DNA from: Carex sylvatica
Taxonomy: Eukaryota; Streptophyta; Magnoliopsida; Poales; Cyperaceae
Assembly: GCA_964058845.1 (NCBI GenBank)
Contig: CAXKVR010000118.1
Location: 22,501 to 86,500, forward strand
DNA length: 64,000 nucleotides
Reading direction: 5' to 3'
Notes under the pieces: generated by a model
The model's input: only the letters and a program-made list of their open reading frames with translations
The model's database searches: none
What the model was told of the DNA's origin: nothing
Shown: one piece after another, positions 1,865 to 46,654 of the stretch
Position numbering within the stretch: the first letter of the stretch is position 1
How the letters are laid out: the number at the start of each line of letters is the position of its first letter
Position numbers and translations under genes: made by a program

Positions 1865-3332
1865 TGATCGCACGAGAATATATGCTAAAAAGTTTCAGTA
1901 TAGCAAGCTATACTTCTTAAACCTTTGTTATACTCTGTCAATTCAGATAGCAAGTGTACTATCCTGTCGTTGAGTATGCTCAGGTATCGATCCACAGGGA
2001 CGGAATAAAAACACTGGACTTATCTTAAAATCACTTAAGATTCTAGAAGTGAGAGAAATTGGTTTGGTTTTAGTTCTAACAATTCTACTGATTAAAAGAC
2101 AGTAAAAGATAATTAAAGTTGTTTTCAATTGATAAAAAGGAGTTTCCAGGGTTCAGATTTCATTTCTGTTCAGCCTCGAGGCATACGGCCCGTACAGATT
2201 CTCGTACGGTCCGTATGGGACCTCAAGTTGATGTTGCAGCTACTGTTTTCTGTGTTGATACTGTGTTTAGGGTTTCTTTTGACCAGATCTAGATACCTAA
2301 CCTCAACTTTCGCATTTTGGCCTAATACCCGATTACCGGACTCAAATACTTCCCTCTTAGATGCGTTAAACCTCAACTTTCGTATTTTGGCCTAATTTAT
2401 CTAAGTTACTTGTTAGTTTACTAAAAGTATCCAAGGACTTTCGCCTCAAGGAAAGTTTCGCCTTTCGGGTACTCCTTGGTTTAACCCTACTTCATATACT
2501 TTATTCGGTTGGAATGAATTTCATAGACTTGGCTCCTAACACTTAGATGTGCGCATTCATCTAACGGGATGACTAATCAGATTCAAGCAAGCACAAATAG
2601 AGCAATAAAAATACTACACAACAAAGTAAAAACAAAGCGTTCAACACAAAATCCAAGTAGCATACAAGCAAAACAAAACTAGAAACTACATCTTACCCCT
2701 AGAAACAAAGTAAATTAGCTACTCATGTTCATGAGATAGCACAAATAACAAGAAATAAGAGAGTTCACGATAAAACAGTGGAAAAATCCGAAGATCCGTT
2801 CAAAACTCGCGTTCTTCCCTTCTCTCCTTCTTTTCCTCTTGTCCAAGTAACCTAGTAAGAATGAATGATTTGATCCCCCTGGAAAGTTCTTTTGATTTGC
2901 TATTAATTCCCTTTCCTGCTGTGGAATATCTCCTTTAATGCCCCAGATCACGCCTCCAGGGGTTTCCTTTTCGGCTCCTCAAATCGTGCTCAATTCAGAT
3001 TCCAGCTGGATTTTCCGAATCAGCGTTGTACGGCCCGTACAGGATCCCGTACGGCCCGTATGCCTGGGCTTTGACTTGGAGACTTTGTGCCTCTGTTGTG
3101 GATCCTTCTGTGTGGTTGGGCAGTTCTTGTACGGCCTGTACAGAATATCATACGGGCCGTATGAAAAGTTGTCAGAACCAGTTTTTCGCCCTTTTTCCTG
3201 CAAAATACCAAACAAAGCATAGCAGTACCACATTTCATCGAAATATAAGTAAAAAGTCCACATTCATAGGCTTTAAAGCACAGGTTTCATTGTAAATTAG
3301 GGCCATAATTTAGATATAATATGGAGACATCA
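1865..3332 (-). repeat. Athila 3' LTR
   Basis: 1468 bp, TG...CA. It aligns without gaps to 12120-13587, with differences seen at 2202, 2330, 2383, 2768 and 3190 (four transitions, one transversion). Apparent short ORFs inside it recur identically in the other LTR and are not genes. Confidence 0.95.
2184..3161. repeat. TACGGNCCGTA palindrome pairs in the 3' LTR
   Basis: Three pairs begin at 2184/2205, 3029/3050 and 3130/3151. Every pair has a start-to-start distance of exactly 21 bp. The copy at 3130 has one mismatch (TACGGCCTGTA). In the first pair the outer edges read CATACGG and CCGTATG and the inner edges both read GTAC, so the pair is also a larger imperfect dyad of about 32 bp. Confidence 0.9.
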
Positions 3333-3348
3333 AATTCCCCCAAGCTTG
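3333..3348 (-). other. Athila polypurine tract
   Basis: On the minus strand the sequence reads CAAGCTTGGGGGAATT directly before the 3' LTR start TGATG. A G-rich purine tract abutting the 3' LTR is the plus-strand primer for reverse transcription. Near-copies occur at 3644-3659 and 4208-4220. Confidence 0.8.
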
Positions 3349-4299
3349 AACTTTGCTTGTCCTCAAGCAAAAATTCTAACTTAGGTATGGATCGGGTTGT
3401 TGGACTTACCTAAATGCAACTTAATCTACTAAGAGGAAAAATGTGCATGATCTTGCGTTCGTTAGAAATCCATTAGAGTCATTTTGGATAGTAACTTGGT
3501 TTCCTTTGGTCAATTTAATTCACCCCACAACTCAATTGATCAAACCCTAACTTCAAGAATGTAATGCTATTTGTAAGAATTAAGCAATCAAACGTATCAA
3601 TAGTTCATTCTTTACCAAATTTATGCCCTCATTTGTGGTTAGAAATTCCCCCAAGCTTGGAACAAGCTTAGGTCAGAAAGTCACGGACTTCGTGTGTTGA
3701 TGTTTGTAAAGGCTCTTTTCGGTTTTTTTTTTATTTTTTTTTTATAGGTGTACGGTCCGTATGATCTGGGTACGGTCCGTATGGGAGACGAGCTCAAAGG
3801 CGCCTAACACGGCTTATTGCCAGTACTCTTATATTCTCCATCTTTTCCCTTCGTATGCATCATGAATACACATATCCAATGATATTCATTCATACCAATG
3901 GATGTCCTAATCTTTCTATTACTTTGAAATCCCATTTTTCTATTTTTACAAGGCATAGTCCGGTTTCAAATGCTTTCTTGACACAATTCAATTCAATCCC
4001 ACAAAGTCCCAAAACAGACTATCGTATACAATTCTTTCTACCAAATGTGTGGTTATTTCCAATTTCCCTAATTCAACCATTTCACAACCAAAATTTTTCA
4101 AATTGAACCCTAATTCACGCAATTCACACAGATTTAATCCTCAAAACATGCAAACACAGAAACAAACTAAGACAAACTAAATGCAAAATAAAGAAAATAA
4201 CTAATCACCCCCCCAAGCTTAGTCCGAGCATTGTCCTCAATGCTTCAGGATATGTAATGGGAAAAATAAATAAGCTAGGGTAGGGAGAAAGAAACCTGA
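3349..4299. other. Athila 3' untranslated region
   Basis: No ORF here is supported. The stretch holds a second polypurine-like block at 3644-3659, a T-rich run at 3722-3743, one palindrome pair at 3751/3771 (20-bp spacing), and a third purine-tract-like block (CCCCCCCAAGCTT) at 4208-4220 followed by GCATTGTCCTCAATGC, a small hairpin. Confidence 0.7.
3751..3781. repeat. TACGGNCCGTA palindrome pair in Athila 3' UTR
   Basis: Two perfect copies of TACGGTCCGTA begin at 3751 and 3771, 20 bp apart, downstream of the third ORF in element orientation. Confidence 0.9.
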
Positions 4300-5321
4300 T
4301 CAGTAGTCAGAAGAGGGGTCGAAGCGCCAGTCGCGAAACTGGTCCTTGATGTCACCAAGACGCTCGGCGTAGTCAAGCATGTACCCGCTAATCTCATCCA
4401 GGCGAGTGGTGTGCTGAGCTGTCTGGTGCTGGATGGCGGTGATGTCACGGCCCTGCTGCAGCTGAGTGTCCCGGATGTCAGTCATGAGGGAGTAGATATC
4501 CCTAAGAGAGGGGTCAGCTGGGCAATGGCGGGCAGACGCAGATGTGGGTGGAGGGGAGGAGGAACTGGGGATGTCCGAGTGAGCATGAGAAGGGCCAAGT
4601 CCGGATACTCGGGGATGGGACGGAGCATGGTGTCCATGAGCATGAGGTCTACGGTGTTGGCGCGGTTCTGAGTCTCACCGCGCGCGAAGATGGTAGAGGC
4701 AAGGGCTCGCTGGAGGATACGAAGGACAGGGTGAGGGATGTAGCGGGCGCGGAAGGAGGTATGGGCTGAGCGAGGGCAGCCGGTGATCATGCCCCAGAAG
4801 GTATCGCGATCCCACCCCTCTCGGAAGCTGAGGGTGTCAGTAGAGGGTGTACTATGGAAACCGAACCATTCGCGTAGAAGAGGGAGATAGACGCGATGGG
4901 TTCGATTGCATAGGCGGAATTTGATGAAGGGGACATCCAGGTCGTCCCACTTAAGCTGGAGAGAGGAGAGGAACTCCTTGGTGTCCATCTCGTAAGCGGG
5001 ATGGCGGAGGTTCCAGAAATCCAGGCTAAACCCCACCCGGGTGGTGAGGATAATGAAGTCATCCTCCACTCCGAGGGTGTGGAGTGTGTTGATGTCGACC
5101 ATGGCAGTGTTCTCGAAGACCCGTTTTTGTAAGGATATGAAATTCTCGTACATCCGACGAGTGGGCATGTCAAAATACCGAACCGCGAAGCGGTCGGCTC
5201 GGTCGGTGTATTCGCCAGAGGAGGTTCCGTCGGAGCCGGAGTCATAGGGTTCAGGGGATGGATGGCGGTGTGGTGTGGGTGAGCGGTCTTGGCGCCGCTT
5301 TTGACGGCGCTCACCAGACAT
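4300..5321 (-). pseudogene. Athila third ORF (env-position protein, ATHILA ORF-1-like), frameshifted
   Basis: The main frame runs 5321-4482 (279 codons) with a basic, Ser/Pro-rich start followed by a folded-looking region. Conserved-looking landmarks are YFDMPTRRMYENF, DINTLHTLGVEDD, AYEMDTKEFLSSL, REWFGFHS and ALASTIFARGETQNR. This pattern is that of the ATHILA ORF-1 protein family, which in Athila elements sits downstream of integrase in the place where retroviruses have env. I see no clear signal peptide or membrane segment, so an envelope role is not supported here. The frame ends early. A coiled-coil-like tail (TQLQQGRDITAIQHQTAQHT) continues in another frame at 4485-4300, so a frameshift lies near 4490-4525. 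Confidence 0.75.
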
Positions 5322-5340
5322 AGCGGTCAGTAGGAAGTGG

Positions 5341-5415
5341 TACGGCCCGGAGAGGGATTTGTACGGGTCGGACGGTGGTTGGTACGGCCTGGATGGGGAG
5401 TCTGTGCGGGCCGTA
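5341..5415. repeat. Degenerate row of four TACGGNCCGTA units
   Basis: Units begin at 5341, 5362, 5383 and 5405, so the spacing is 21, 21 and 22 bp. Each has one or two mismatches, which suggests an older row whose spacing has been kept while the palindromes decayed. Confidence 0.7.
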
Positions 5416-5957
5416 GGGCTGGTGTGTGCTCAGAGGGGAAGGAGGCGGCTGGTAGGGTTTGGTCGGTGTCTTGGTAGAAAAGTTGTCGGCGGCGAGGGAT
5501 TTGTAGTGCGGCTTGGAGGGAATCACGAGGGTGTAGCAGCGAACGAGGGCGGTGGTGCTCTGCTAGAGATGGTGACCGGTGGTGGTGAGCTGCTAGAGAA
5601 GATCGGTGACCGGTGGAAAAGAGAAGGGTGGTGCGGAGGTGAGGTGGCAGCGATCCGCTAGAGGCGGATAGAAAGGTGGTGGAGAGTGGGCGGCCGGTGG
5701 GTAGCTAGAGGCGGAGAGCGGCGGAGGAGAAGTTGCGGCGGCTAGGGTTTTGGTTATACGGGGTGGTGTTCGGTCCGTAGGAAGAAAACGACAAAAAGGA
5801 GGTGGTGTGGGGTAGAGTCTGTCGGGGGGGTCGGGTTTAAAAGGGAAGAGGGTCTAACCGAAAGGACGGGAGTTAAGTCGAATGGGTGTGAAGAGAAAAG
5901 GTCGCGCCCTTTGAGGTTCTGCCGCGCCCCTTGAGGCTCTGCGCCGAATGGTTCCCA

Positions 5958-5989
5958 TACGGCCCGTATGAAATATAGTACGGACCGTA
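5958..5989. repeat. TACGGNCCGTA palindrome pair before the third ORF
   Basis: Perfect copies TACGGCCCGTA (5958) and TACGGACCGTA (5979) lie 21 bp apart. Confidence 0.9.
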
Positions 5990-6187
5990 CCAACTCCCAG
6001 AAATGGTTACTTCTCATGTCTGCTCAGAATTGAAAAATAACAACTACAAATTGAAAAGTCAAAATTAAACTAATATAAAACTAAAACAAAAGTAAAAGAA
6101 ATGACTAAACATAATGATTTTAAAAGTGCTTGGGTTGCCTCCCAAGAAGCGCTCGTTTTAGGTCTTTAGCTAGACCGCCGTGCAACT

Positions 6188-9100
6188 TTAAACTTCCACT
6201 GGAGCGGGGTCAGAAAGAAACTGCACACTCCGCTCACTCATCAAGTGATCAGCAACGTAGTGCTTGAGACGCTGACCATTTACTTTGAAGGTCCCTCTTT
6301 CTGTACTCCAGATATCAACTGCTCCAAAGGGGTACACTTTCTTCACTTGAAATGGGTGGGACCATCTTGATTTGAGTTTACCTGGAAAAATTCTCAATCT
6401 AGCGTTAAATAAAAGTACAAGATCTCCCTCTTTGAACTGGCGAGGCGAAATGCGCTGGTCATGCAATCGCTTCGTCTTTTCCTTGTAAAATCTCGCATTC
6501 TCATATGCATGCAACCTCATTTCCTCCAACTCATGCAAGTCGAGGACACGCTTTTCTCCAGCTGCAAGCAGGTCCATGTTAATCGCTCTTGTGGCCCAGA
6601 ATGCTTTGTGCTCAATTTCAACAAGAAGGTGACACGGCTTTCCATACACCAGCTTGTACGGGCTCATGCCAATCGGTGTCTTGAATGCGGTGCGGTAGGC
6701 CCAGAGTGCATCATGCAGCTTGAAAGCCCAATCCTTCCTTGTCCTTGCGACTGTTTTCTCTAAAATCGACTTGATTTCCCTGTTAGAAATCTCAGCTTGC
6801 CCATTAGTTTGAGGGTGATAAGAAGTAGATACCTTGTGAGTCACCCCATGTCGGCTCAGGAGATTTTTGAATTGTCGATTGATGAAATGCTTGCCTCCGT
6901 CACTGATGACAGCTCGAGGCACCCCAAAATGAGGGAAAATGATCACATTGAAAAACTTTCTTACCGAATTCGAGTCAGCCTTGCGGCACGCCATGGCCTC
7001 AACCCACTTTGATACATAGTCGACTGCCACCAAAATATACTCATTCCCTCGAGAAGATGGGAATGGACCCATGAAATCGATGCCCCAAACATCAAAAATC
7101 TCGACCTCAAGAATAAAGTTGAGAGGCATCTCACTTCGTCTTGTCATGTTTCTAGTTCTTTGGCACCTATCACAAGCTATAACAAAAGATCTTGCATCTT
7201 TAAAAAGAGAAGGCCAAAAGAAACCAGATTGTAATACCTTGGCAGTGGTCTTAGAGAATGAAGAGTGTCCTCCATAAGCGGACGAGTGGCAATGTGCAAG
7301 AATAGAATCTGTTTCCTCGAATGGAACACAGCGTCGGAATACGCCATCAACTCCAACCTTGAAGAGATAGGGCTCGTCCCAAAAGTAGTACTTGGAATCT
7401 GACCTTAGTTTCTTCTTCTGTTGTTGGGACATTGTGGCTGGCAAAACTCCAGAGACTAGGTAATTTGCGATGTCGGCATACCAGGGAGTTTGCTGTTTGG
7501 ACTGGTTGGTACTTGTACGGTCCGTATTAATTTGTGTACGGCCCGTATGGTGGATAGTGCAGGCCGTATGAACTTCTGTACGGCCCGTATGGTTGTCGTC
7601 CAGATCAGAACTGATTGCAAGGAGTTGTTCATCGGGGAATGAGTCATTGATTGGGAGCTTAGTTGTGGTATCTTCTTCCCAATGAAGACGTGACAGATGG
7701 TCTGCTACAGAATTCTCGACTCCTTTCGTATCTCTTATCTCAAGATCGAACTCCTGCAAAAGAAGAATCCATCTAATCAGTCTTGGTTTTGCATCTTTTT
7801 TACTTAAAAGGTACCTTAGTGCGGCATGATCTGTGTAGACCACTATCTTCGAGCCCACCAAATATGATCTGAATTTATCGAGAGCAAATACGATGGCGAG
7901 GAGCTCCTTTTCGGTTGTGGTGTAGTTCATTTGGGCCGGATCTAGCACCTTGCTAGCATAGTAAATAACACACGGCTTTTTGTCTTTCCGTTGCCCCAGA
8001 ACTGCTCCGACTGCATAGTCGCTTGCATCGCACATCAACTCAAATGGTAGTGACCAATCTGGCGATTGTAAAATAGGTGCAGAGATAAGAGCTTCCTTTA
8101 AACTGCAAAAGGACTTGACACAATCATCAGTGAAAATAAAATCAGAATCTTTGATAAGTAAATTGGTCAAAGGTTTTGCAATTTTTGAAAAGTCCTTTAT
8201 GAAACGGCGATAAAAACCGGCATGTCCAAGAAAACTTCGAACCCCCTTGACATTTGTTGGGATTTCGAGTTTCTCGATTATCTCAATTTTTGCTTTATCA
8301 ACCTCGATTCCTCTAGAGGTGATAACATGCCCCAAGACAATTCCTTCTTGGACCATGAAATGACATTTTTCCCAATTGAGGACTAAATTGACTTCTTCAC
8401 ATCTCTGCAAAATCTTACACAAGTTAGCCAAACAAGCATCAAAAGAGGTACCGTATACAGAAAAATCATCCATAAAAATTTCAACTTCTTTCTCAATAAA
8501 ATCAGAAAAAATAGCCATCATGGCTCTCTGAAAAGTCACAGGTGCATTGCAAAGACCGAAAGGCATCCTACGGTATGCGTAGGTACCGTATGGGCATGTG
8601 AATGTGGTCTTCTCTTGATCCTGCGGGTGAATGGGAATCTGAAAGAAACCTGAATAACCATCAAGATAACAAAAATATGAGTGGTTAGCAAGCCTCTCAA
8701 GGAGTTGATCAACAAATGGCAAGGGAAAGTGATCCTTGCGTGTAGCCGCGTTGAGCTTCCGATAATCTATGCACATCCTCCAACCGGTTGCAACGCGCGT
8801 TTGAATCATCTCTTCTTTCTCATTTTTCACCACTGTTGCTCCTCCTTTCTTGGGAACCACATGGACGGGACTCACCCATTTGCTGTCAGAAATCGGGTAG
8901 ATGATACCTGCTTCATAAAGTTTTAAAATTTCTTTCTTTACTACCTCTTTTAAATTCGGGTTGAGCCGTCTTTGGTGTTCAACTGAAGGCTTGTGGTCGT
9001 CTTCTAGCAAGATCCTGTGTGTGCAAGTGGTTGGATCGATCCCCTTCAAGTCCTTGATAGAATACCCAATCGCGCTTTTGTGGGTTCTCAACTTCTCCAT

Positions 9101-10156
9101 GAGCTTGGCGGTCTGGTCAGGGGTCAACCCTGCATTCACAATGACAGGACATGTCTTTTCTGAGTCAAGGAATTCATACCTGAGAGTGGCTGGGAGAGGT
9201 TTTAATTCGGGAGTGGTCTGTGCTGTCTGGCTTGTTGTACGGGCCGTATGGGTTTCGTGCGGACCGTATGCCTCAGCTTCAGACTGGCCTTTTGGTTCCT
9301 TCTCAATCTCCAGCTTCTCTGTTTTAAATTCGTCTGTTGTACGGTCCGTATGATCTGTGTACGGCCCGTACGGAAAATCTTCCAGACAGACAGGTGTCAT
9401 GTCTGCTGCGCAAATTCTCTCAAGATCGCCTGTTTCAGCCTGCAAATCAGATAAAAAATCAGAATGATACCTTAGAGAGTTGTTGATTTGCTCCATTAAC
9501 TTCTCTTCAACTAATTCATCAATCACATCGACCATATAACACGATTCGGGTTGAGCGGGATACTTCATTGCTCGGTCGATTTGAAAGTGAACTTTCTCAT
9601 CTCCAATGTTCAAGGTTAAAGTCCCATTTTTCACATCGATTAGTGCCCTGGCGGTTCTCAAAAACGGCCGTCCTAGAATAATAGGGACCTCCTTGTCTTC
9701 CTCCATTTCCATCACAACAAAATCACCGGGCACATAGAACTTACCGACTCGAACCGGTACATCCTCCACTATGCCAAGTGGTAGTCTCACCGAAGAATCC
9801 GCAAGTTGTAAAGTCATCCGTGTAGGTCTAAGCTCGCCTACACCCATTCGTTCGAAGATAGTTCGCGGCATGAGACTCACACTAGCCCCCAAATCACATA
9901 AAGCTTGTCGGATGGTTGCTTTGCCAATTGTGCATGGAATGGAAAATTTACCCGGATCTCCCAATTTCGGTGGAAGTTCATTTCTCAGGATGGCACTGCA
10001 CTGCTCAGTCAATTTCACCGTCTCATGCCCCTCCAAGCTTCGTTTATTGGATAGGATATCTTTGAGAAACTTAGCATAGGTTGGCATTTGGGTCAAAGCC
10101 TCGGTAAATGGAATGGTAATGTGCAATTGCTTGAGAACTCCAAGAAAGTTTGAGAA
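6188..10156 (-). CDS. pol: Athila Pol: protease, reverse transcriptase, RNase H, integrase
   Basis: The open frame has no internal stop from 10156 to 6188. Its first ATG is at 10126, giving 1312 residues. Domains, numbered from that Met: aspartic protease with C-D-L-G-A-S (about 78-82); RT with [10 protein letters not shown] and the catalytic F-M-D-D near residue 552; RNase H with C-D-A-S-D-Y near 699; integrase with an H-H-C-C zinc site ([10 protein letters not shown]...CDRCQ, about 945-985) and D-D-E residues in [15 protein letters not shown] and [11 protein letters not shown]. All catalytic motifs look intact. Two linkers, between protease and RT and between RNase H and integrase, are built from the palindrome repeats. 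The frame is the same as that of downstream gag and is separated from it by one UAA, so translation would need readthrough, or the stop is a mutation. Confidence 0.93.
7516..7589. repeat. Row of four TACGGNCCGTA units inside pol
   Basis: Units begin at 7516, 7537, 7558 and 7579, an exact 21-bp period that keeps frame. On the minus strand they encode a seven-residue periodic linker (H-T-G-R-T, H-T-A-C-T, H-T-G-R-T, N-T-D-R-T) between RNase H and integrase. The third unit is imperfect (TGCAGGCCGTA). Confidence 0.92.
9238..9370. repeat. Two TACGGNCCGTA pairs in the protease-RT linker
   Basis: Pairs begin at 9238/9258 and 9340/9360, both 20 bp apart. On the minus strand they encode [12 protein letters not shown] and [12 protein letters not shown], low-complexity linkers that match no protease or RT motif. 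A spacing of 20 rather than 21 places the two units of each pair in different codon phases. Confidence 0.9.
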
Positions 10157-11835
10157 TTATTCATTGAGTCGGGTTTCGGCTAGTCTCTGTGGAAATGGTA
10201 CTGGTGGCCGGTAGGGCGGTGGTTTCTCGGTCACCTTCTTTTTCTGTTTATCAGTTTCATTCGGTACGGGCCGTACGGGATTTGTACGGACCGTATGGTC
10301 TGTTGTCTCAGTCACAACCTCAATCGGATCAGGTTTTGACTGTTCAGAAATCGCAGGGGGTGTTGGTACGGGCCGTATGGGATTCGTACAGACCATATGA
10401 TCGACTTCTGGCTCGACAGGTATTGCTGGTCCTTGGTACTGTGTCCCACTTCGCAATGTTACCGCTTTGGCCTCTCCCCTAGGGTTAATCTCTGGTTGGC
10501 TTGGTAGCATCCCAGGTTGTGGTGGTGCAGTTTGGCTCCCACTTTGAGGTTTGTTTTGGGCCAAACTTGCCAATTGAGCACTGATCGTTTGCATCTGTTC
10601 GAAAAGCATTTGATTCATCTTCCCTTGTTCATGCATGAAGTTTTCTACTTCAGGGGCAACATAGGGCTTAGATGGTCCAGAATATGGTGGTCGGTTGTTT
10701 GAGTTATTGAATGCAGCATTGTTGTAGAAGTTGCGGTTGTTGTTGTTGTTGCTGCCAGAAGGGTTGTTGTTGAATTGTGTGGGATTGTTTTGCTTCCACC
10801 TCCAATTCTGTTGTTCAATCGGGTCCTTGGAATAGGTTCGGCTGAAAGGAGGTTTTGGAAAGTAGGATGGTTCACTGTTGAGAGAGTTAACTTGCTCGGG
10901 CCCTTCATCCCTTTGCGCAAGCGGGCAATTCTCATACTCGTGCCCTTCGTCTCCACACATAACACAAGACTGTGGTTGCTGATTACCAAGCGCTTTGACA
11001 CTCATCTTGTCAAAAGCCTTCTGCATGGCGTCAAACTTGGCGGTGAGAGCGGTGATCTGATCGAGCTCAAGTCGGCCTCCTCCAGTTGGTCGATTGCCCT
11101 CTCGGCCGGACCACTGTTGGTTAGTCGCCATATTGTCGATTAAGTTCATTGCTTCAGTAGCGTCTCGATCCATGAGAGCTCCACCTGCAACTGCATCTAC
11201 AGAAGTACGAGTGGTATCAGTTAAACCAGCATAAAAAGACTGAATAAGTAACCACTCGGGAATACCATGATGTGGGCAAGAGTATTGTAATTCCCTAAAC
11301 TTTCCCAGGCCTCATTCAGTGGTTCATCAGACCTTTGTTTGAAACTGGTCAGTTGGGTCCTAACCTTGGCAGTTCTTTTATGGGGGAAAAATCTGGTCAA
11401 AAACAGTTTGGACAATTCCCTCCAAGTGGTAATTGAATCCCTTGGTAATGACCCTAACCATTTCTTGGCTTTATCCCTAAGAGTAAAAGAAAATAAAGCA
11501 AGTCTAATATAATCAGCTGTTGCGCCATTAATTTTAATGGTGGCACAACATTCAAGGAAGGTCTGAACATGGGCATGCGGATCCTCATGATCCATGCCAT
11601 GGAATGTGTTTTGTTGCACGATGTTGACAACGCCCGGATTGAAGTTGGGTTGGTTGCCGACAATCCTTGGTAATCGGATTGCTCCTCTAACATCTCCAGC
11701 TCTCGGGACATTGAACTCTCGCAACGTCCTTGGTGCATAGTTTGCTCCTTCGTCATCAGAGTATTGATCCTCGTTGGGTTGACCTTGTCCAGTACCCTCG
11801 TTGAGTAGATCTTGTTCAGCACCGTGGTTGTTCAT
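10157..11835 (-). pseudogene. gag: Athila Gag (capsid and nucleocapsid), one frameshift
   Basis: The N-terminal part (11835-11221 frame) contains the capsid core typical of Athila Gag: HVQTFLECCATIKINGAT, LRDKAKKWLGSLP, SITTWRELS and FFPHKRTAKVRTQL. The reading then leaves the Gag frame at about 11304 (after N-E-A-W-E) through an apparent 1-nt loss and resumes in the frame of 11173-10157. That part has a zinc knuckle C-V-M-C-G-D-E-G-H-E-Y-E-N-C (CX2CX4HX4C), Asn- and Gln-rich stretches, and a tail containing palindrome-derived segments (IRPVP, VRPVP). A UAA at about 10157 ends it. The frameshift removes the nucleocapsid from the capsid reading frame, so this copy should not make a normal Gag. 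Confidence 0.88.
10265..10397. repeat. Two TACGGNCCGTA pairs in the Gag tail
   Basis: Pairs begin at 10265/10285 and 10367/10387, both 20 bp apart. The last unit is degenerate (TACAGACCATA). They encode the repeated C-terminal segments TNPIRPVP and TNPVRPVP of Gag. Confidence 0.88.
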
Positions 11836-12119
11836 TTTGCTTTGTTCTGGATCTGTCTGGCCTCTGTTGTTGGTTTGTACGGTCCGTATGAATTTGGTAC
11901 GGGCCGTACGGAGAGGTGACAGATGTGGTGGCGCTGGAACAAATGTGTTGGAAGTTTGCCCCTTGCTTCTGAGATGGTAGTGGTTCTTGGGCAGTGATTC
12001 TTCCAGTATGTTCCTGCAAAGATGAAGTACGAAAAATTAAAATTAAAATCTAGAATCAAGCAAAAATAAGAAAAAGTATAGAATTTTAGTTGCCGTCCCC
12101 GGCAACGGCGCCAAAAACT
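11836..12119. other. Athila 5' leader with primer-binding site
   Basis: This is the untranslated leader between gag and the 5' LTR. It holds one palindrome pair at 11878/11898 (TACGGTCCGTA and TACGGGCCGTA, 20 bp apart) and the primer-binding site at 12096-12113. Confidence 0.8.
12096..12113 (-). other. Primer-binding site, tRNA-Asp type
   Basis: On the minus strand the sequence reads TGGCGCCGTTGCCGGGGA, complementary to the 3' end of plant tRNA-Asp(GUC) as I recall it (CCCCGGCAACGGCGCCA). It lies six bases inside the 5' LTR. tRNA-Asp priming is usual for Athila elements. Confidence 0.85.
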
Positions 12120-13587
12120 TGATCGCACGAGAATATATGCTAAAAAGTTTCAGTATAGCAAGCTATACTTCTTAAACCTTTGTTATACTCTGTCAATTCA
12201 GATAGCAAGTGTACTATCCTGTCGTTGAGTATGCTCAGGTATCGATCCACAGGGACGGAATAAAAACACTGGACTTATCTTAAAATCACTTAAGATTCTA
12301 GAAGTGAGAGAAATTGGTTTGGTTTTAGTTCTAACAATTCTACTGATTAAAAGACAGTAAAAGATAATTAAAGTTGTTTTCAATTGATAAAAAGGAGTTT
12401 CCAGGGTTCAGATTTCATTTCTGTTCAGCCTCGAGGCATACGGCCCGTACAGATTCCCGTACGGTCCGTATGGGACCTCAAGTTGATGTTGCAGCTACTG
12501 TTTTCTGTGTTGATACTGTGTTTAGGGTTTCTTTTGACCAGATCTAGATACCTAACCTCAACTTTCGCATTTTGGCCTAATACCAGATTACCGGACTCAA
12601 ATACTTCCCTCTTAGATGCGTTAAACCTCAACTTTCGCATTTTGGCCTAATTTATCTAAGTTACTTGTTAGTTTACTAAAAGTATCCAAGGACTTTCGCC
12701 TCAAGGAAAGTTTCGCCTTTCGGGTACTCCTTGGTTTAACCCTACTTCATATACTTTATTCGGTTGGAATGAATTTCATAGACTTGGCTCCTAACACTTA
12801 GATGTGCGCATTCATCTAACGGGATGACTAATCAGATTCAAGCAAGCACAAATAGAGCAATAAAAATACTACACAACAAAGTAAAAACAAAGCGTTCAAC
12901 ACAAAATCCAAGTAGCATACAAGCAAAACAAAACTAGAAACTACATCTTACCCCTAGAAACAAAGTAAATTAGCTACTCATGTTCATGAGATAGCACAAA
13001 TAACAAGAAATAAGAGAGTTCATGATAAAACAGTGGAAAAATCCGAAGATCCGTTCAAAACTCGCGTTCTTCCCTTCTCTCCTTCTTTTCCTCTTGTCCA
13101 AGTAACCTAGTAAGAATGAATGATTTGATCCCCCTGGAAAGTTCTTTTGATTTGCTATTAATTCCCTTTCCTGCTGTGGAATATCTCCTTTAATGCCCCA
13201 GATCACGCCTCCAGGGGTTTCCTTTTCGGCTCCTCAAATCGTGCTCAATTCAGATTCCAGCTGGATTTTCCGAATCAGCGTTGTACGGCCCGTACAGGAT
13301 CCCGTACGGCCCGTATGCCTGGGCTTTGACTTGGAGACTTTGTGCCTCTGTTGTGGATCCTTCTGTGTGGTTGGGCAGTTCTTGTACGGCCTGTACAGAA
13401 TATCATACGGGCCGTATGAAAAGTTGTCAGAACCAGTTTTTCGCTCTTTTTCCTGCAAAATACCAAACAAAGCATAGCAGTACCACATTTCATCGAAATA
13501 TAAGTAAAAAGTCCACATTCATAGGCTTTAAAGCACAGGTTTCATTGTAAATTAGGGCCATAATTTAGATATAATATGGAGACATCA
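12120..13587 (-). repeat. Athila 5' LTR
   Basis: 1468 bp, TG...CA, about 99.7 percent identical by eye to 1865-3332. Being adjacent to the primer-binding site, this is the 5' LTR and would hold the active promoter on the minus strand. I could not place a TATA box with confidence. It contains three pairs of the TACGGNCCGTA palindrome. Confidence 0.95.
12439..13416. repeat. TACGGNCCGTA palindrome pairs in the 5' LTR
   Basis: The same three pairs as in the other LTR begin at 12439/12460, 13284/13305 and 13385/13406, again with 21-bp spacing. Five of six units keep a perfect 11-bp palindrome. Confidence 0.9.
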
Positions 13588-14068: not shown

Positions 14069-14510
14069 GGGAGTTATCAGGATCGGTTGTTAATAAAAAA
14101 CCGATCCTGATAGTTCAACTATTAGAATCAGTTGTTCTAAACAACTGATCCTGATACTATCAGGATAAGTATCAGGATTGATTGTTAATAAAAAAACCCG
14201 ATCCTGATAGTTCAACTATTAAGATCAGTTGTTCTAAACAACTGATCCTGATACTATCAGGATAGGTTGTTAATAAAAAACTAATCCTAATACATTTTTT
14301 TTAAGTTGGTTCTGCAAAAAAAAAATATATATATATATATTAGGGTCGGTTTTTTATTAACAACCGATCCTGATACTTTTTTTTTTTTAAAGTTGGTTCT
14401 GCAAAAAAAAAAGTATTAGGATCGGTTGTTTCAAATAACCAATCCTAATAGTACTATTAGGATCGATTTTTTATTAACAACCGATCCTAATACTTTTTTT
14501 TTAATAAAAT
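14069..14510. repeat. CACTA 1 internal hairpin array
   Basis: GGATCGGTT/AACCGATCC-type inverted pairs in A/T spacers, interrupted by an A-run followed by (TA)n at about 14317-14340. Many units carry a mismatch in one arm (AACTGATCC). Confidence 0.75.
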
Positions 14511-16435: not shown

Positions 16436-17045
16436 ACTAAAATCAGATGTTTGAAATAACCGATCCTAAATTTTTTTTTTTTTACAGAACCAACTTTAAA
16501 AAATAAAAATAAAGCATTAGGATCGATTTTTTAATAACAACAGATCCTAATACTTTTTTTTTTTTGCAGAACCAACTTAAAAAAAAAAGGTATTAGGATC
16601 GGTTGTTAATAAAAAATCTATCCTAATACTTTTTATTTTTTTTAAAGTTGGTTCTGCAAAAAAAAAAAAAATTAGAATCGGTTTTTTATTAACAGCCGAT
16701 CCTGATAGTATAAGAATCAGTTGTTTAGAACAACTGATCCTAATAGTTGAACTATCATGATCGGTTCCTTTTAAAAACCGATCCTGATAGTATCAGGATC
16801 GGTTTTTATAAACAACTGATCCTGATAGTTCAACTATCATGATCAGTTGTTTAGAGAAACTGATCCTGGTAGTATCAGGATTGGTTTTTATAAACAACCG
16901 ATTCTAATAGTGAAACTATCAGGATGAGTTGTTTAAAAAACCTGATCTGATTAACTATTGGGATCGGTTTTGTTCAGAGAACCGATCCAGATAGATACTA
17001 GTATCGGTTGTTTCATATAGCCGATCCAGATAGACCAATCCTGAT
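16436..17045. repeat. CACTA 1 right subterminal hairpin array
   Basis: Dense GGATCGGTT/AACCGATCC inverted pairs (for example 16750-16800), ending in the TTTTTCCACTAGTG terminus. Units resemble those at 19609-19890 in inverse order. Confidence 0.85.
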
Positions 17046-19608: not shown

Positions 19609-19890
19609 CACTAGTGGAAAAACAGGAATCAGGATCGGCCTATCTGGATCGGTTATATGAAACAACCGATACTAATATCTATCTGGATCGGTTCTTTGAA
19701 CAAAATCGATCCTAATGGTCTATCAGGATCGGTTTTTATAAACAACTGATCCTCATAGTTGAACTATTAGGATCAGTTTTTCTAAACAACTGATCCTGAT
19801 ACTATCAGGATCGGTTTTTATAAACAACTGATCCTGATAGTTCAACTATCAGGATCAGTTGCTTCTAAACAACTGATCCTGATAGTGAAT
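19609..19890. repeat. CACTA 2 left terminus and subterminal array
   Basis: The 8-bp palindromic end CACTAGTG is followed by at least five GGATCGGTT/AACCGATCC hairpins with 8-10 nt loops, spaced by AGTT(C/G)AACTAT-type links. These are the likely transposase-binding sites, by analogy with TNPA binding in En/Spm. Confidence 0.9.
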
Positions 19891-20428: not shown

Positions 20429-21867
20429 TATAAGGATTAGGCCCGAATTTTTTATCTAATATAATTTATTAAAATAATTTAAAAAATAATTTGTAAGATA
20501 ATTTAAGAAATAATTATTTTTAGTATCAATTTCTAAGAAATAATTCTTTTTAGTATCAATTTTTAAGAAATATTTTTTTTTCAAAGATTTTTGGTTATTT
20601 TTTAAGAAATATACTTTTAGGATCGGTTGTCTATAAACAACCGATCCTGACAGTCTACTATCAGGATCGGTTTTTTATAAACAACCGATCCTAATAGTGC
20701 ATATGAAAAGTTAATTCAGTCCCAATATTGTCAGAATCTCGTTTCTCTTCCTCTATCGCCTCTCTTAATTAGCGCAGCAGCTATTTCGCCCTAAATTATT
20801 ACTTCAGCTATCTCACCTCTCTTTTCTGAGGTACATTTGATCATCTCTTTTCTCAAGTTTGTTATTACTAGTAGAGCACCATTTTTTGGCTTTATAATTA
20901 ATTCGGTTCAAACCCTAAATCCTAAATCCTATATATATATGAGAAGTGAGTTATGATCCGGCCCGCTCAAAATCTAAACCTTATAGCCTTGATTCAGCTC
21001 TTTTGTTAGTTCCACAAGCTTTTAATTATAAGTTTGAATACCTAGCATCTTTTCATTTCCAGTTTTTTTTTATATGTGGAGACTTGGATGCACATGCATA
21101 TATATATATAAGCATATATGCTATATATGAGGTAATATATGAGCTACATATGAGTTATTCTTTATATGTAGAGATTTTCTTTATAAGTTTGAATATCTCT
21201 TCTTATTTCAGGATTAATTTTTGTATGCACACGCTTTTGAGTTTGCTATATATATGCTATATGAGCATTTTTGTTATTTCAAGTTGTAGGATATATAACA
21301 TGCATGTTATGTACATCTCTTAATTAGGTTCCGATCGATGGTTTAATTTTGTAGATTGGCTATTATTGAGATATTTGGTGCAGCGATATATTTTCATCTC
21401 ACTCGATCCGTCATCCAAAGAAGTTGTAAGTACAACCTAGAAGTTTCATGTTTAATTATTTTTGTGCATTAATTAATGTGTTTTTTTTTGTAAGAGATGT
21501 ATTTATATTTGCTAGCTAGTATGTAGCTAGAGTACTGTCTTATGAGCCACAACCGCATTATTAATGCCTTCAGGTCATGATACCCGTTCAAAATTAATCC
21601 ATTAGGGATTAATTTTGAATAGTCCCCGTTTTGGGACTGCTCTCTGAATACTTTGTCTCATTTAGGATGTGGCTTCGGGAAAACTAAGTGGAAATGCTGC
21701 CGAAATTTTCTTAAATGCTAAAACACGACTAACATGTGGCCACTACTGAGACAAAGTATTCAGAGAGTGGGATAGGATGGTAACCCGACCCCATGTAAGC
21801 CATATTGTGAACAGAACTAAGCTCTCCAACCTTGTTCTTAATTAATTGTGTTTTATTATAATTGCAG
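20429..21867. other. CACTA 2 region upstream of the transposase
   Basis: Contains two hairpin units at about 20620-20696, AT-rich DNA, and two strong inverted repeats: 14-bp perfect arms with a 5-nt loop (21587-21619), and 21-bp perfect arms at 21640-21660 and 21747-21767. The sequence TAATTGCAG directly before the ATG at 21868 looks like a splice acceptor, so this is probably leader plus 5' intron. Confidence 0.6.
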
Positions 21868-24800
21868 ATGGGCCGCAGTTGGATGTACGAAGTATCACGT
21901 CTATCTGATGAATATATGACAGGTGTCGAGGAATTTATCAGAGTTGCTACGGAAGATATGGCGAATAAGGGGAGTGCACTGATGTCGTGTCCTTGCCGTG
22001 ATTGTAACAATGATCAAAAATTCTCCAACTCGAACCAAGTGAGGAACCATTTAATCCGTCGTGGATTCAAGCAAGGATATAAGTGTTGGTTATGGCACGG
22101 TGAGAGTTTGCCAACCGACATAGGTACTGGTACTGAGCATCAGAAATACCATACCGGTAGAAATGACGGGAATGATCTACGGGGATTGGAAACCGATGTA
22201 GGTGCTCGCACTGAGGATCAGGAATACCATACCGAAGAAAATGATGATATGGTGGTAGATAGATGTGATAATTTTGATCAAATGTTACGTGATTTAGAAG
22301 AGGATTTTGATAATGATAAGCAGTATTGTTTATTTGAGAATTTGTGTGAGGATTCTAATAAGGAATTGTATCCTGGTTGTTCTAAATTTTTAAAATTGAA
22401 AGGTGTATTAAAATTGTATAACCTTAAAGCATCTAACGGTTGGAGTGATAGAAGTTTTACTGAGTTATTACAAACTTTAAAAGAAATACTTCCGGATGGA
22501 AACGAGATACCACCAAATGTTTATGAAGCGAAGAAAATATTGTGCCCAATGGATTTAGAAGTTCAAAGAGTACATGCATGTCCAAATGATTGTATATTAT
22601 ATCGATCCGAGTATAAAGATCTTCATGAGTGTCCAAAATGTGGTGTATCACGTTACAAACCAAAGCAGTTAACCGGCGATAAAAGTGATTACAAACCGAA
22701 TAAAGGGCCTCCGGCAAAAGCATTGTGGTACCTCCCCGTGAAACCGAGATTGAAACGTTTGTTCTCAAATGCTAAAGATGCAAAATTAGTGCGTTGGCAT
22801 GCAGATAACCGAAAAAAAGATGGGAAATTACGGCACCCCGCTGATTCTCCTCAGTGGAGAAATATTGACAGAGAGTTCCCCGAATTCGGATGTGACCCTA
22901 GAAATCTTAAGCTTGGGCTGAGTGCAGATGGAATAAATCCGCACAGTAGCATGAGCAGCAAGCACAGCAGTTGGCCGGTTTTATTGTGCATTTATAATCT
23001 TCCGCCTTGGTTATGTATGAAACGCAAATACATCATGTTGACCTTGCTCATATCAAGACCCAAACAGCCCAGGAACGACATAGATGTGTATCTAGCGCCA
23101 TTGATCGATGATTTAAAAGAATTATGGCAACCCGGAGTGCAGATATTTGATGCATACAGCAAGGAGAAATTCACTTTACGGGCCATGATTTTCTGCACCA
23201 TTAATGATTTTCCGACTTATGGAAATTTGTCGGGTTACAGTGTCAAAGGAGAGAAAGCATGCCCTGTTTGCCTAGACGATACAGTCGATGTGTGGCTACC
23301 TAATTCCTCTAAAAATGTGTACATGGGTCATCGTAGATTTCTTCCTGCCAACCATGCACACCGAAAGAGAAAGAAAGAATTCAATGGAAAGACCGAGAAT
23401 ACCAGAGTAAATTATCCGTTGACCGGTAAAGCTGTTTATTCACGAGTGAAGGATATCAAAGTTCAATTTGGGAAATTTAAAAAAAAGGTGGTGAGAAAGA
23501 AAGGGGCACCGAAAATTAGTTGGAAAAAGAGGTCAATATTCTGGGATTTACCATACTGGCAGCACTTAGATGTTCGACACTGTCTCGATGTGATGCATGT
23601 GGTTAAAAATGTGTGTGATAGCCTAGTTGGAACACTATTGAATATTCCGGGTAAGACTAAGGATGGTATCAATGCTCGGAAAGACATGCAATTCCTGAAC
23701 ATACGGTCGGATCTACAACCAGCAGAGAAGGAAAGAGAAAATGGGAAATTTTGTACGTATCTAAAACCTGCAATGCATACGCTGTCGAAAGCAGAGAAAA
23801 AAAGCTTATTGGAATGCCTTCACGGTGTCAAAGTTCCATCTGGATATTCTTCGAATATTAAAAACTTAGTTTCACTGGAAGATTTAAAATTGACAGGAAT
23901 GAAGTCTCATGACTGTCATGTTTTAATGACACAGCTTCTTCCTGTTGCAATTCGGGGCATATTGCCAAAGTGTGTTAGGCAGACCATCACGAAGCTTTGT
24001 TTTTTCTTTAATGCCATATGTTGCAAAGTAAGTGATCCCGATATGCTAGATGCTCTGCAGAAGGAGGTTGTTGTCACTCTTTGTCATCTTGAAATGTATT
24101 TTTCGCCGTCTTTTTTTGATATCATGGTTCATTTAATTGTTCACCTAATTAGAGAAATTAAGATGTGCGGACCTGTTTTCTTGCGGTACATGTATCCGTT
24201 CGAGAGATACATGGGATTGTTAAAGGCATATGTCAGGAATCGATATCGGCCTGAGGGAAGCATCGTAAAAGCTTATGCTGCCGAAGAGGTTATTGAGTTT
24301 TGTACTAATTATATGGATGATGTCAAAGCTATAGGCATTCCTAAATCTCGGCACGAGGGTCGACTTCATGGGGTAGGCACAATCGGTGCGAAATTAATCG
24401 AGCCCGATAGTACAATGATGTCACTAGCACATTTTCATGTTTTGCAACACCTCACTGACGTTCATCCTTTTTGGGATGAGCATATGACTCTCTTGCGGCA
24501 ACAGAATCCTAAGAAAACCGACAAGTGGTTAATCAGCGAACACAATAAAAAGTTTGAAGGATGGTTTACACGGAGAGTCGTGCAAGCTCCAGAGGGAGAA
24601 AATATTATAGAAACTGTGAAATTATTGGCTCTTGGTCCAGTCCACGTCGTGAGGACCTTCCAAGGATATGACATCAACGGGTACACATTTTACACAAGAA
24701 ATCAAGATTCAAAGAGTACCGTGCAAAACAGTGGAGTGACGTTAGTAGCCGTTTCGAGTGATTTGTCAGATCCTAAAGGTGCCGGACCATCGCATGCATC

Positions 24801-25233
24801 AATGTCATATTACGGGTTTGTTGAAGAAATTTGGGAGGTAGATTATAGAAAATTTAACATTCCGTTATTTATGTGTAAATGGGTCGATAACCGTAGGGGG
24901 GTTAAAGTCGACGAAGATGGTTTTATTCTAGTGGATTTCAGTAAGGCTGGATACAAGGACGATCCATTTATACTTGCAAGACAAGCCACGCAAGTGTTCT
25001 ATGTTACTGATCCGGCCGATCGTTCAAGACATGTTGTCCTCTCTGGTAAAAGACGTATCATCGGGATTGATAATGTGGAAGACGAAGAAGCGTACGATCA
25101 TTTTGATGAGATACCACCGTTTTCCATTGGCATGACATCTTTACCAACCGGTGAGGATAACAAGACAAGTCACACGCGCAACGATCACAATGAAGGAGAA
25201 TGGATTGAAGTTCCCACTGGCAATAATCCCTAA
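21868..25233 (+). CDS. tnpD: CACTA TNPD-type transposase
   Basis: A single uninterrupted frame of 1121 residues from ATG 21868 to TAA 25231-25233. N-terminal zinc-finger-like transposase-associated domain (about 1-77: C-P-C-R-D-C...H-L-I-R-R-G-F). A second cysteine motif H-E-C-P-K-C-G near 252. Transposase_21 core with L-S-A-D-G-I-N-P (about 350), H-C-L-D-V-M-H (about 573) and the region around F-E-R-Y-M-G-L-L-K (about 777), candidates for the D, D, E catalytic residues. DUF4218-like part around 700-820, DUF4216-like part around 978-1050 (YGFVEEIWEVDY, PLFMCKWVD). The ATG directly follows an AG acceptor-like site; I chose it over an in-frame TTG at 21862. In CACTA elements this protein cuts and joins the ends. 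It looks intact. Confidence 0.93.
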   Translation: MGRSWMYEVSRLSDEYMTGVEEFIRVATEDMANKGSALMSCPCRDCNNDQKFSNSNQVRNHLIRRGFKQGYKCWLWHGESLPTDIGTGTEHQKYHTGRNDGNDLRGLETDVGARTEDQEYHTEENDDMVVDRCDNFDQMLRDLEEDFDNDKQYCLFENLCEDSNKELYPGCSKFLKLKGVLKLYNLKASNGWSDRSFTELLQTLKEILPDGNEIPPNVYEAKKILCPMDLEVQRVHACPNDCILYRSEYKDLHECPKCGVSRYKPKQLTGDKSDYKPNKGPPAKALWYLPVKPRLKRLFSNAKDAKLVRWHADNRKKDGKLRHPADSPQWRNIDREFPEFGCDPRNLKLGLSADGINPHSSMSSKHSSWPVLLCIYNLPPWLCMKRKYIMLTLLISRPKQPRNDIDVYLAPLIDDLKELWQPGVQIFDAYSKEKFTLRAMIFCTINDFPTYGNLSGYSVKGEKACPVCLDDTVDVWLPNSSKNVYMGHRRFLPANHAHRKRKKEFNGKTENTRVNYPLTGKAVYSRVKDIKVQFGKFKKKVVRKKGAPKISWKKRSIFWDLPYWQHLDVRHCLDVMHVVKNVCDSLVGTLLNIPGKTKDGINARKDMQFLNIRSDLQPAEKERENGKFCTYLKPAMHTLSKAEKKSLLECLHGVKVPSGYSSNIKNLVSLEDLKLTGMKSHDCHVLMTQLLPVAIRGILPKCVRQTITKLCFFFNAICCKVSDPDMLDALQKEVVVTLCHLEMYFSPSFFDIMVHLIVHLIREIKMCGPVFLRYMYPFERYMGLLKAYVRNRYRPEGSIVKAYAAEEVIEFCTNYMDDVKAIGIPKSRHEGRLHGVGTIGAKLIEPDSTMMSLAHFHVLQHLTDVHPFWDEHMTLLRQQNPKKTDKWLISEHNKKFEGWFTRRVVQAPEGENIIETVKLLALGPVHVVRTFQGYDINGYTFYTRNQDSKSTVQNSGVTLVAVSSDLSDPKGAGPSHASMSYYGFVEEIWEVDYRKFNIPLFMCKWVDNRRGVKVDEDGFILVDFSKAGYKDDPFILARQATQVFYVTDPADRSRHVVLSGKRRIIGIDNVEDEEAYDHFDEIPPFSIGMTSLPTGEDNKTSHTRNDHNEGEWIEVPTGNNP

Positions 25234-26160: not shown

Positions 26161-26790
26161 TATCAAGATCGGTTCTCACTACAGAACCGATCCTGATGCC
26201 TATCTGGATCGGTTCCTTACTAAAGAACCGATCCAGATAGGCATCAGGATCGGTTCTGTAGTGAGAACCGATCTTGATACTCTATTGGGGGCACCGTTTT
26301 ATTTTTAAATTTAAAAAAAAATTAAAAACGTATCAAGATCGGTTCTCACTACAGAACCGATCCTGATGCCTATCTGGATCGGTTTCGTACTAAAGAACCG
26401 ATCCAGATAGGCATCAGGATCGGTTCTGTAGTGAGAACCGATCTTGATACTCTTTTGGGGGCATCGTATTATTTTTAAATTTTAAAAAGAATTAAAAAAG
26501 TATCAAGATCGGTTCTCACTACAGAACCGATCCTGATGCCTATCTGGATCGGTTTCTTACTAAAGAACCGATCCAGATAGGCATCAGGATCGGTTCTGTA
26601 GTGAGAACCGATCTTGATACTCTATTGGGGGCACCGTTTTATTTTTAAATTTAAAAAAGAATTAAAAACGTATCAAGATCGGTTCTCACTACAGAACCGA
26701 TCCTGATACCTATCTGGATCGGTTTCTTACTAAAGAACCGATCCAGATAGGCATCAGGATCGGTTCTGTAGTGAGAACCGATCTTGATAC
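26161..26790. repeat. Four 170-bp tandem repeats, each holding a 120-bp palindrome
   Basis: Units begin at 26161, 26331, 26501 and 26671, an exact 170-bp period. Each opens TATCAAGATCGGTTCTCACT and closes with its inverted copy 120 bp later; mismatches between arms are few. Each palindrome contains three nested GGATCGGTT/AACCGATCC pairs. A 50-bp A/T-rich spacer (CTATTGGGGGCACCG...) joins units. The array lies just upstream of the TNPA leader exon. Confidence 0.92.
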
Positions 26791-33849: not shown

Positions 33850-34475
33850 TAACTATCTGGATCGGTTCCTAAGCTAAGAACTGATCCAGATAGTAATAAT
33901 CTAAATTTAAAAAATTAAAATATAATTAAAAATAAACCCTAAACCCTATTAGGATCGATTCTATAATAGTGAACCGATCCAGATAGTTATTTTCTGAATT
34001 TTATAACGTTTTTAATATAAATTCAGAAAATAACTATCTGGATCGGTTTACTATTATGGAACCGATCCAGATAGTCAGTTATCTGGATCGGTTTACTATT
34101 ATGGAACCGATCCAGATAGTCAGTTATCTGGATCGGTTTCTATGTTAGGAACCGATCCAGATAACTGACTATCTGGATCGGTTCTATAATAGTGAATCGA
34201 TCCAGATAGTCAGTTATCTGGATCGGTTCCTAACATAGAAACCGATCCAGATAACTGAGTATCTGGATCGGTTCACTATTATAGAACCGATCCAGATACT
34301 CAGTTATCTGGATCGGTTTCTATATAAGGAACCGATCCAGATAGGTGATTATCTAGATCGGTTATTTAACCGATCCAGATTATGGTAGTATCTGTATCGC
34401 CTTTATCAGGATCGGTTGTATTCCGATACTAATATGCGTATATAACCGATCCTGATTCCATATTTTCCACTAGTG
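33850..34475. repeat. CACTA 2 right subterminal array and terminus
   Basis: At least ten TATCTGGATCGGTT...AACCGATCCAGATA hairpins, most with 10-12 nt loops, sit back to back (densest at 34030-34350). It ends TTTTCCACTAGTG. The right array uses the CTGGATCGG variant more than the left, which uses CAGGATCGG. Confidence 0.92.
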
Positions 34476-45938: not shown

Positions 45939-46654
45939 CACTAGTGGAAAAATAGGAATCATGATCGGCCTATCTGGATCGGCTATACGTAACAACCGAT
46001 ACTAATACCTATCTGGATTGATTTTATTAATAAAACCGATCCTAAAAACTAATCAGATCAGATTTTTTGGTCAACCGATTCTAATTTATGAACTATTAGA
46101 ATCAGTTATCTCTAAAAACCAATCCTAATAGTATCATAATTGGTTCTAACAAAAAATCGATCCTAATTATCATATATTATGATCGGTTATTATAAAAAAC
46201 CGATCCTGATAGTATCAAGATCAATTCTAACAAACAACCGATCCTAATAGTTCTATAATTATGATCAGTTATTTGTTAGAACCGATACTAATAACTATCT
46301 GGATCAGTTGTTTGTTAGAACTGATCCTGATAACTATCTGGATCGGTTTTTTATTAGAACCAATCCTGATAACTATCTAGATTGGTTATTATCAAAGAAC
46401 CGATCTTGATACCTGTTTTTTATTTTTTTAAATTAATAAAAAAATAGGATCGGTTCTTTGATAATAACCGATTCTGATAACTATCTGGATCAGTTATTAA
46501 CTAAGAATCGATCCTGTTTTTTTATTAATTTAAAAAAATTAAAACAGGTATCAAGATCGGTTCTTTGATAATAACCGATCCAGATAGTTATCAGGATCGA
46601 TTCTTAGCTAAGAACCGATCTTGATTCTCTTAATCTGGATTGGTTAATGCTAAG
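45939..46654 (+). mobile_element. CACTA element 3, left end only
   Basis: It starts CACTAGTGGAAAAATAGGAA and continues with the same first hairpins as CACTA 2 (TATCTGGATCGGCT, ACAACCGATACTAAT). It then holds a long, decayed array of GGATCGGTT/AACCGATCC pairs, including large inverted repeats around 46380-46640. No right terminus or transposase follows. It is cut at about 46655 by a foldback MITE half. Confidence 0.82.

Follow-up and report, generated by a model that had tools for sequence, protein, structure and literature searches.

An Athila-type long terminal repeat (LTR) retrotransposon lies on the minus strand at positions 1865–13587 of a 64,000-nucleotide stretch of Carex sylvatica DNA (contig CAXKVR010000118.1, positions 22,501–86,500; hereafter the window), and it carries many short palindromic units set in pairs about two helical turns apart. 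The units keep their spacing, are conserved among copies of the family, recur at several of the same positions in related families and turn over in sequence between them. The new observation is that three further Athila families of the same genome carry differing palindromes in a similar layout. From these features we infer protein binding, and the reading that we favour, with confidence somewhat above even, is that the units serve as operator dyads in double-stranded DNA, read by a dimeric, family-specific protein, perhaps the PF03078 protein of the element itself.

Paired units in the element and in the genome

The pattern TACGGNCCGTA occurs in the window 25 times exactly and 31 times with up to one mismatch, every time within the element; dinucleotide shuffles average 0.33 matches and reach 2 at most. 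With up to two mismatches, the element holds 36 units (six per LTR and 24 internal), of which 35 look genuine; the solitary unit at 8580, in the reverse transcriptase (RT) coding region, looks like a chance match. A first-pass annotation, made from the letters of the window alone, had counted about 34 units, which is the number left when 8580 and the single unit at 5769, which it did not list, are set aside, and all of the positions that it gave are correct. Genome-wide (64 Mb), 1166 exact single units were found versus 23 for a reversed-pattern control. Exact pairs with a gap of 0–30 bp number 401 against none for the control, and limiting the gap to 7–13 bp likewise gives 401. The gap is 9 or 10 bp, a unit spacing of 20 or 21 bp, in 400 of these pairs. 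The same preference is seen in pieces of the window copy and six other copies of its family, which we call family A (the labels A–D are those of this analysis): among 222 units with up to one mismatch, neighbours within 30 bp are spaced by 20 bp (38 cases), 21 bp (61) or 22 bp (1). The spacing of 20–22 bp, or two helical turns, that the annotation had proposed is therefore real, and the genome-wide count shows that the motif is not confined to this copy.

The LTRs (1865–3332 and 12120–13587) are each 1468 bp long, share 99.66% identity and have TG...CA termini; by eye, the flanking letters show that a 5-bp target duplication, TTATA, borders the element. The LTRs, the target duplication and the order protease–RT–RNase H–integrase agree with the Athila lineage of Ty3/gypsy, as does a PF03078 ATHILA open reading frame (ORF) located 3' of pol (E = 6.5e-16), a feature carried by 16% of Athila elements (PMC6317226). 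The RT was compared by identities only. Proteins of Carex rostrata and Rhynchospora are among the closest named matches when the whole query is covered. The units are distributed over the element as follows.

1865..3332, minus strand: 3' LTR, 1468 bp, with units 2184, 2205, 3029, 3050, 3130 and 3151
3751..3781, minus strand: unit pair in the interval between the ATHILA ORF and the 3' LTR
4482..5429, minus strand: ATHILA ORF, PF03078, putative binding protein, shorter than in other copies
5341..5415, minus strand: four units, degenerate by one or two mismatches apiece, where the ATHILA open frame starts
5769..5779, minus strand: lone unit with one mismatch in the interval between pol and the ATHILA ORF
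5958..5989, minus strand: unit pair in the interval between pol and the ATHILA ORF
6188..10156, minus strand: pol open frame with protease, RT, RNase H and integrase (Pfam domains)
7516..7589, minus strand: four units in the RNase H–integrase linker, pol residues ~857–881; two family-B copies keep three, at residues 854, 861 and 875
9238..9370, minus strand: two unit pairs in the protease–RT linker, pol residues ~263–307; mapped copies of families B, C and D also have clusters here
10157..11311, minus strand: gag C-terminal open frame, with a zinc knuckle by eye and no Pfam match; pairs 10265/10285 and 10367/10387 lie toward the frame end
11221..12036, minus strand: gag N-terminal open frame, PF03732; units 11878 and 11898 precede the Gag domain
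12120..13587, minus strand: 5' LTR, with units 12439, 12460, 13284, 13305, 13385 and 13406

The ATHILA ORF of the window copy (4300–5429) is missing a middle stretch that is present in other copies and resumes in another frame. Of 25 units (up to one mismatch, 3' LTR excluded), 13 are flanked on the sense strand as A-unit-C and only one as the opposite G-unit-T, so the unit arrays may additionally have a direction.

Conservation of the units within family A

To define the footprint, each of the 29 other family-A copies was aligned with the window copy across a 3.8-kb stretch of gag and pol. The tests in this central region rest on 12 units, the weak unit 8580 having been dropped before counting. 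Among the unit columns, the outer T/A positions changed in 1 of 682 cells, the A/T positions in 15 of 682 and the inner G/C positions in 7 of 680; the CpG columns changed in 39 of 681 and 41 of 681. The adjoining columns (−1/+11) are also steady, with 8 of 682 cells changed, and beyond them the changes rise to 94/682 at −2/+12 and 72/682 at −3/+13. The central base changed in 42 of 340 cells, so that the palindrome is kept while its centre drifts. The conserved footprint is RTACGGNCCGTAY with a drifting centre. All unit columns pooled give 103 changes in 3406 cells (3.0%), equal to the whole-region rate of 3.0%, and the 60-bp flanks give 5.3%; the units are rich in fast-mutating CpGs.

CpG cells are kept in 573 of 595 cases within the units versus 3091 of 3520 elsewhere. 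When a column is called variable if at least two copies differ from the majority, 3 of 48 CpG columns in the units are variable. The 80-bp flanks have 18 variable CpG columns of 45 (p = 0.00012), and the remaining columns 84 of 281 (p = 0.0003); these p values, like those that follow, serve only as guides since the copies are related. For the non-CpG core columns, 3 of 72 are variable versus 83 of 580 in the flanks (p = 0.015), and the difference from all other columns (308 of 3355) is not significant (p = 0.21). Nor is significance reached by the −1/+11 columns (3 of 24 variable, p = 1), by the central base (4 of 12, p = 0.085) or by third codon positions, of which 1 of 18 is variable in the units versus 197 of 1036 (p = 0.22).

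Regarding the coding context, the 18 listed coding units occupy codon frames 0, 1 and 2, and a 20-bp step shifts the frame even inside one pair; thus, selection on the peptide alone does not explain the units. Those in gag and pol lie outside the detected Pfam domains. The units are very likely DNA sites under selection. The earlier proposal that the sequence itself is kept is supported.

Two explanations that need no binding protein can be weighed here. The units might be functionless remnants of local duplication or of an ancestral small mobile repeat, as their shortness and recurrence at many places along the element could suggest. However, they are retained across the family with strict spacing, a drifting centre and kept CpGs, and the flanks of three pair-of-pairs are not homologous: the pairs at 3029/3130, 9238/9340 and 10265/10367 lie 101–102 bp apart and share only 24–34% identity outside the units, while the corresponding distances differ in other families. 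This explanation is extremely improbable, and the spreading small mobile repeat suggested in the annotation finds no support in these identities or in the several positions held across families. Alternatively, CpG- and CHG-bearing palindromes could be kept since the element is regulated through their methylation or through small RNAs. Each unit does contain two CpGs as well as CCG/CGG sites, and these are better preserved than the remaining CpGs of the region, but such a link to silencing does not predict the phasing at 20–21 bp, the conserved T/A ends or the half-sites specific to each family described below, and we regard it as highly improbable.

Differing motifs and shared layout in related Athila families

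By RT identity, family A comprises copies at 93–100%, B at 88–89%, C at 83% and D at 74%, where C is read only from copies C140 and C281 (both 83%) and D only from C258 (74%). RT identity alone does not sort every copy: decayed copies at 84–85% (C87) have a B-like PF03078 match (43%). Six further copies of A, four of B, one of C and one of D were compared, each as two halves, together with a 4.9-kb piece, the second C copy. Exact family-A units number 0 or 1 per B piece. Instead, family B carries YACGR-N-YCGTR, with 90 units in the eight pieces of its four copies versus a shuffle mean of 0.12, 39 neighbour spacings of 19–21 bp, and 49 exact pairs genome-wide against none for the control. The motif of family C is AGTGCGG-N8-10-CCGCACT, joined back to back via CCGCA-N-TGCGG, and has 20 matches in one copy versus 0.0 in 100 shuffles. 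The order of half-sites equals that of family A, with the 1-bp and 10-bp gaps swapped. Family D combines AGTGCGG-N9-CCGCACT with AGTGCG-NN-CGCACT, with 14 matches in one copy versus 0.0 in 100 shuffles. Counted over all places in the genome and not restricted to Athila copies, C/D dyads number 1638 at gaps of 0–30 bp (control 1) and 1233 at gaps of 8–10 bp (control 0); among the matches listed, the gap is 8–10 bp, or 30 bp where two dyads are spanned. The CGG/CCG halves are common to the motifs of all four families. The phenomenon is therefore wider than the first-pass annotation stated, since in copies of related families other motifs are similarly arranged.

The window also contains, at 29356–29725, a fragment resembling the family-C LTR region (83–91% identity in pieces) with 12 AGTGCGG/CCGCACT half-sites; thus, the window holds two Athila motif types. 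An SBP-box site, to which the annotation had likened the GTAC core of some units, was rejected: GTAC varies in family B and is absent from the C/D dyads, whereas the CGG/CCG halves persist.

The palindromes could alternatively act in the genomic RNA as hairpins for packaging, dimerisation or translation control, the first two of which had been among the earlier suggestions. Paired units could form two 5-bp stems with a central mismatch and a loop of 9–10 bases, and the dyads of families C and D are inverted repeats with short loops. A pairing test must look at the centres and flanks, as the core pairs in any case through its palindromy. The centres are unpaired in 25 of 37 distinct pairs (the rest being six Watson–Crick and six G-U), and on the sense strand the inner flanks are C.A in 23 of 37 and the outer flanks A.C in 25 of 37, positions that would be wobble pairs in the antisense. 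In family C, where LTR dyads enter the count twice, 13 of 24 dyads are unpaired next to GCGG, seven of them as A.C. Since the centres and flanks are mostly unpaired, DNA dyads explain the units better, and an RNA role is improbable.

The positions of the sites were mapped in the window copy, in pieces of three B copies and in one copy each of C and D, using the pol residue numbering of the window; the LTRs of B, C and D were inferred from repeated ends and not delimited. In the protease–RT linker, clusters are located at residues 263–304 in A, 274–305 in B, 250–283 in C and 250–302 in D. In the RNase H–integrase linker, they are located at residues 857–878 in A and 854–875 in B. All four families have clusters at both element ends and between pol and the 3' end, and the second C copy has four clusters 5' of the first ATG of an intact 513-residue PF03078 frame. 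Thus, the sequence of the sites varies while their position and pairing stay, as expected if the sites co-evolve with a reader.

Beyond this genome, 141 related proteins (P0001–P0141) were screened with crude peptide tests for A-type pairs, and 25 chosen ones were read by eye, three of which yielded no linker. The strict scan matched a single protein, P0002, with IRPV/IRTV seven residues apart, and most of the relatives gave no sign of a paired motif in these crude tests. In P0002, the stretch at residues 156–190, just before the PF03078 protein of another sample, contains IRPV/IRTV and, by eye, YGPH/YGPY, each seven residues apart, and the repeats can be read as A-type unit pairs. A 7-residue repeat before RT, sought only in the proteins anchored by ELK-x-LP, was found in P0068; P0129 (Carex rostrata) gave one match of four residues. 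In P0068, a pol protein of Rhynchospora breviuscula, two pairs of a 7-residue (21-base) repeat containing CAVA lie in the protease–RT linker; judging from the peptide, this is possibly a trace of another motif variant.

The candidate reader and its relation to described systems

A binding site for a dimeric factor, also put forward in the first-pass annotation, is the best reading of these data. The 13-bp unit RTACGGNCCGTAY would consist of two 6-bp half-sites arranged as a dyad, to which a protein dimer binds without contacting the central base. With at least two units at 20–21 bp, neighbouring dimers would lie on one helix face and could bind cooperatively. As the sites are in both LTRs, between coding domains and 5' of the ATHILA ORF, the whole integrated copy, or its complementary DNA, would present a multi-site target by which a given factor could distinguish the copy from other DNA. 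The half-site has changed between families (TACGG, YACGR, TGCGG) with a similar layout and several positions kept, as if site and reader change together, and the reader is probably family-specific.

A host protein is the other candidate. In this explanation, a dimeric host transcription factor that reads CGG/CCG dyads would activate the elements, each family being tuned to a different host factor; it draws on the suggested stress-responsiveness of the repeated motif of Sireviruses. CGG-CCG dyads in these unrelated elements (Bousios et al. 2010, PMC2829016) and in the four Athila families here would fit a shared reader, and sites do cluster at the element ends. However, activation through the LTRs alone leaves the sites in gag and in the protease–RT and RNase H–integrase linkers unexplained, and within one genome the families differ in half-site and gap order. 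We consider a host factor unlikely. For a possible link with LATERAL ORGAN BOUNDARIES, a search of the open-licence literature found no paper.

A family-specific protein is the likeliest reader, and the PF03078 protein leads among the candidates with its lack of a membrane segment, basic N-terminus and long C-terminal helix. There are 94 PF03078-type matches in the genome, fragments included, with open frames in copies of A, B and C; the frame of the D copy is broken by stops. In the proteins of three copies (A, B and C), the top 19-residue hydropathy is 0.93–1.35, with no membrane-type segment, and the N-termini are net positive. Between A and B, the PF03078 proteins are 47–48% identical compared with ~69–79% for pol (short fragments aside). 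Gag, at 51–78% (51–59% over the longer matches of its C-terminal frame), is nearly as variable as the PF03078 protein. A model of the homologue P0001 has a confident core at about residues 51–280 and a helix at 377–437. A structure search with this model, in which the core domain was not folded on its own, gave no fold match among solved structures. A profile search of solved structures returned four sequences at E up to 1, the best at 0.0089; for three, the match falls in the C-terminal helix region. In a related PF03078-type 3' ORF of sunflower Athila, a nuclear localisation signal is predicted (PMC11728184). One C copy retains its sites without a PF03078 frame, which would mean supply in trans, a recent loss or that the PF03078 protein is not the reader. 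On balance, the PF03078 protein is the leading candidate, and a tentative one.

The nearest described feature, by analogy and in another superfamily, is the repeated motif of Sireviruses: element-specific, CpG-rich palindromes with a CGG-CCG core in 12 of 13 listed elements, placed in the LTRs and 5' of the env gene, in two cases also at the env start (PMC2829016). The motif was reported to be lacking in classic Ty1/copia elements and hence called Sirevirus-specific (PMC2829016). The Athila units are likewise high-copy, element-specific palindromes with a CGG-CCG core, present in the LTRs and 5' of the gene in the env position (the 5958 pair; family C PF03078). However, Sireviruses are Ty1/copia elements, whereas the element here has the Ty3/gypsy domain order; the Athila units are also paired at 20–21 bp, occur within coding linkers of gag and pol as well, and allow a position-wise comparison among families of one genome. 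The annotation knew of no described Athila feature of this kind, and the open-licence literature, mostly seen as listings, agrees in that no Athila counterpart of the paired palindromes was found; the claim needs amending for the close counterpart in Sireviruses.

Regarding mechanism, the nearest analogue is VANC/VANDAL, in which dense, element-specific and family-specific short motifs change together with the fast-evolving, element-encoded VANC protein (PMC5735166, PMC10398659). In contrast to the Athila units, which also occupy coding frames, the VANC21 motif has one orientation and lies mainly in non-coding tandem repeats. For VANC, experiments have shown binding and a loss of methylation, whereas for the Athila sites binding is a prediction. 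By analogy with VANC/VANDAL, the likeliest result of binding would be that copies of the same family are activated or shielded from silencing, although we hold this effect to be possible rather than probable. Two other Ty3/gypsy proteins bear comparison. For the extra protein TRP28 of Retand, DNA binding and a regulatory role have been suggested, but it is antisense and has another domain, and the available text describes no dispersed target motif (PMC11963269). The 3' ORF of sunflower Athila encodes a PF03078-related protein, for which the available text gives no target sites (PMC11728184).

Among DNA transposons, the subterminal repeats of En/Spm (CACTA) are arrays of inverted short motifs bound by the element-encoded TnpA, and they are present only at the ends. 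The window holds a CACTA-type transposase (PF02992) at 21862–25233, near arrays of inverted GATCGGTT/AACCGATC repeats, possibly subterminal repeats, at 16458–16988, 19647–19817 and 26167–26784. Similar arrays are found at 33860–34452 and 46034–46621, and those at 1209–1565 and 14081–14487 flank the Athila insertion. Frames resembling a long interspersed nuclear element (PF14111, PF03372, PF00078, PF13966) occupy 36356–41275.

The role of env-like proteins has been called debatable (PMC11728184), and what the additional 3' gene of Athila-type elements does is unsettled; scattered family-specific operators offer it a directly testable job, with the several natural site variants within one genome as built-in controls. 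In the fullest form of this proposal, which we consider rather doubtful, Athila elements would recognize themselves: the PF03078 protein of each family would read its own paired dyads along the entire copy and keep the copies of that family transcribable, with site and protein co-evolving. If true, this would be VANC-like anti-silencing in an LTR retrotransposon, reached either independently of the CGG-CCG motifs of Sireviruses or through a principle common to both. The present data suggest that plant Ty1/copia (Sirevirus) and Ty3/gypsy (Athila) elements employ the same kind of CGG-CCG dyad, and such a common dyad would be relevant to the ways in which LTR elements of plants evade host control or turn it to their use.

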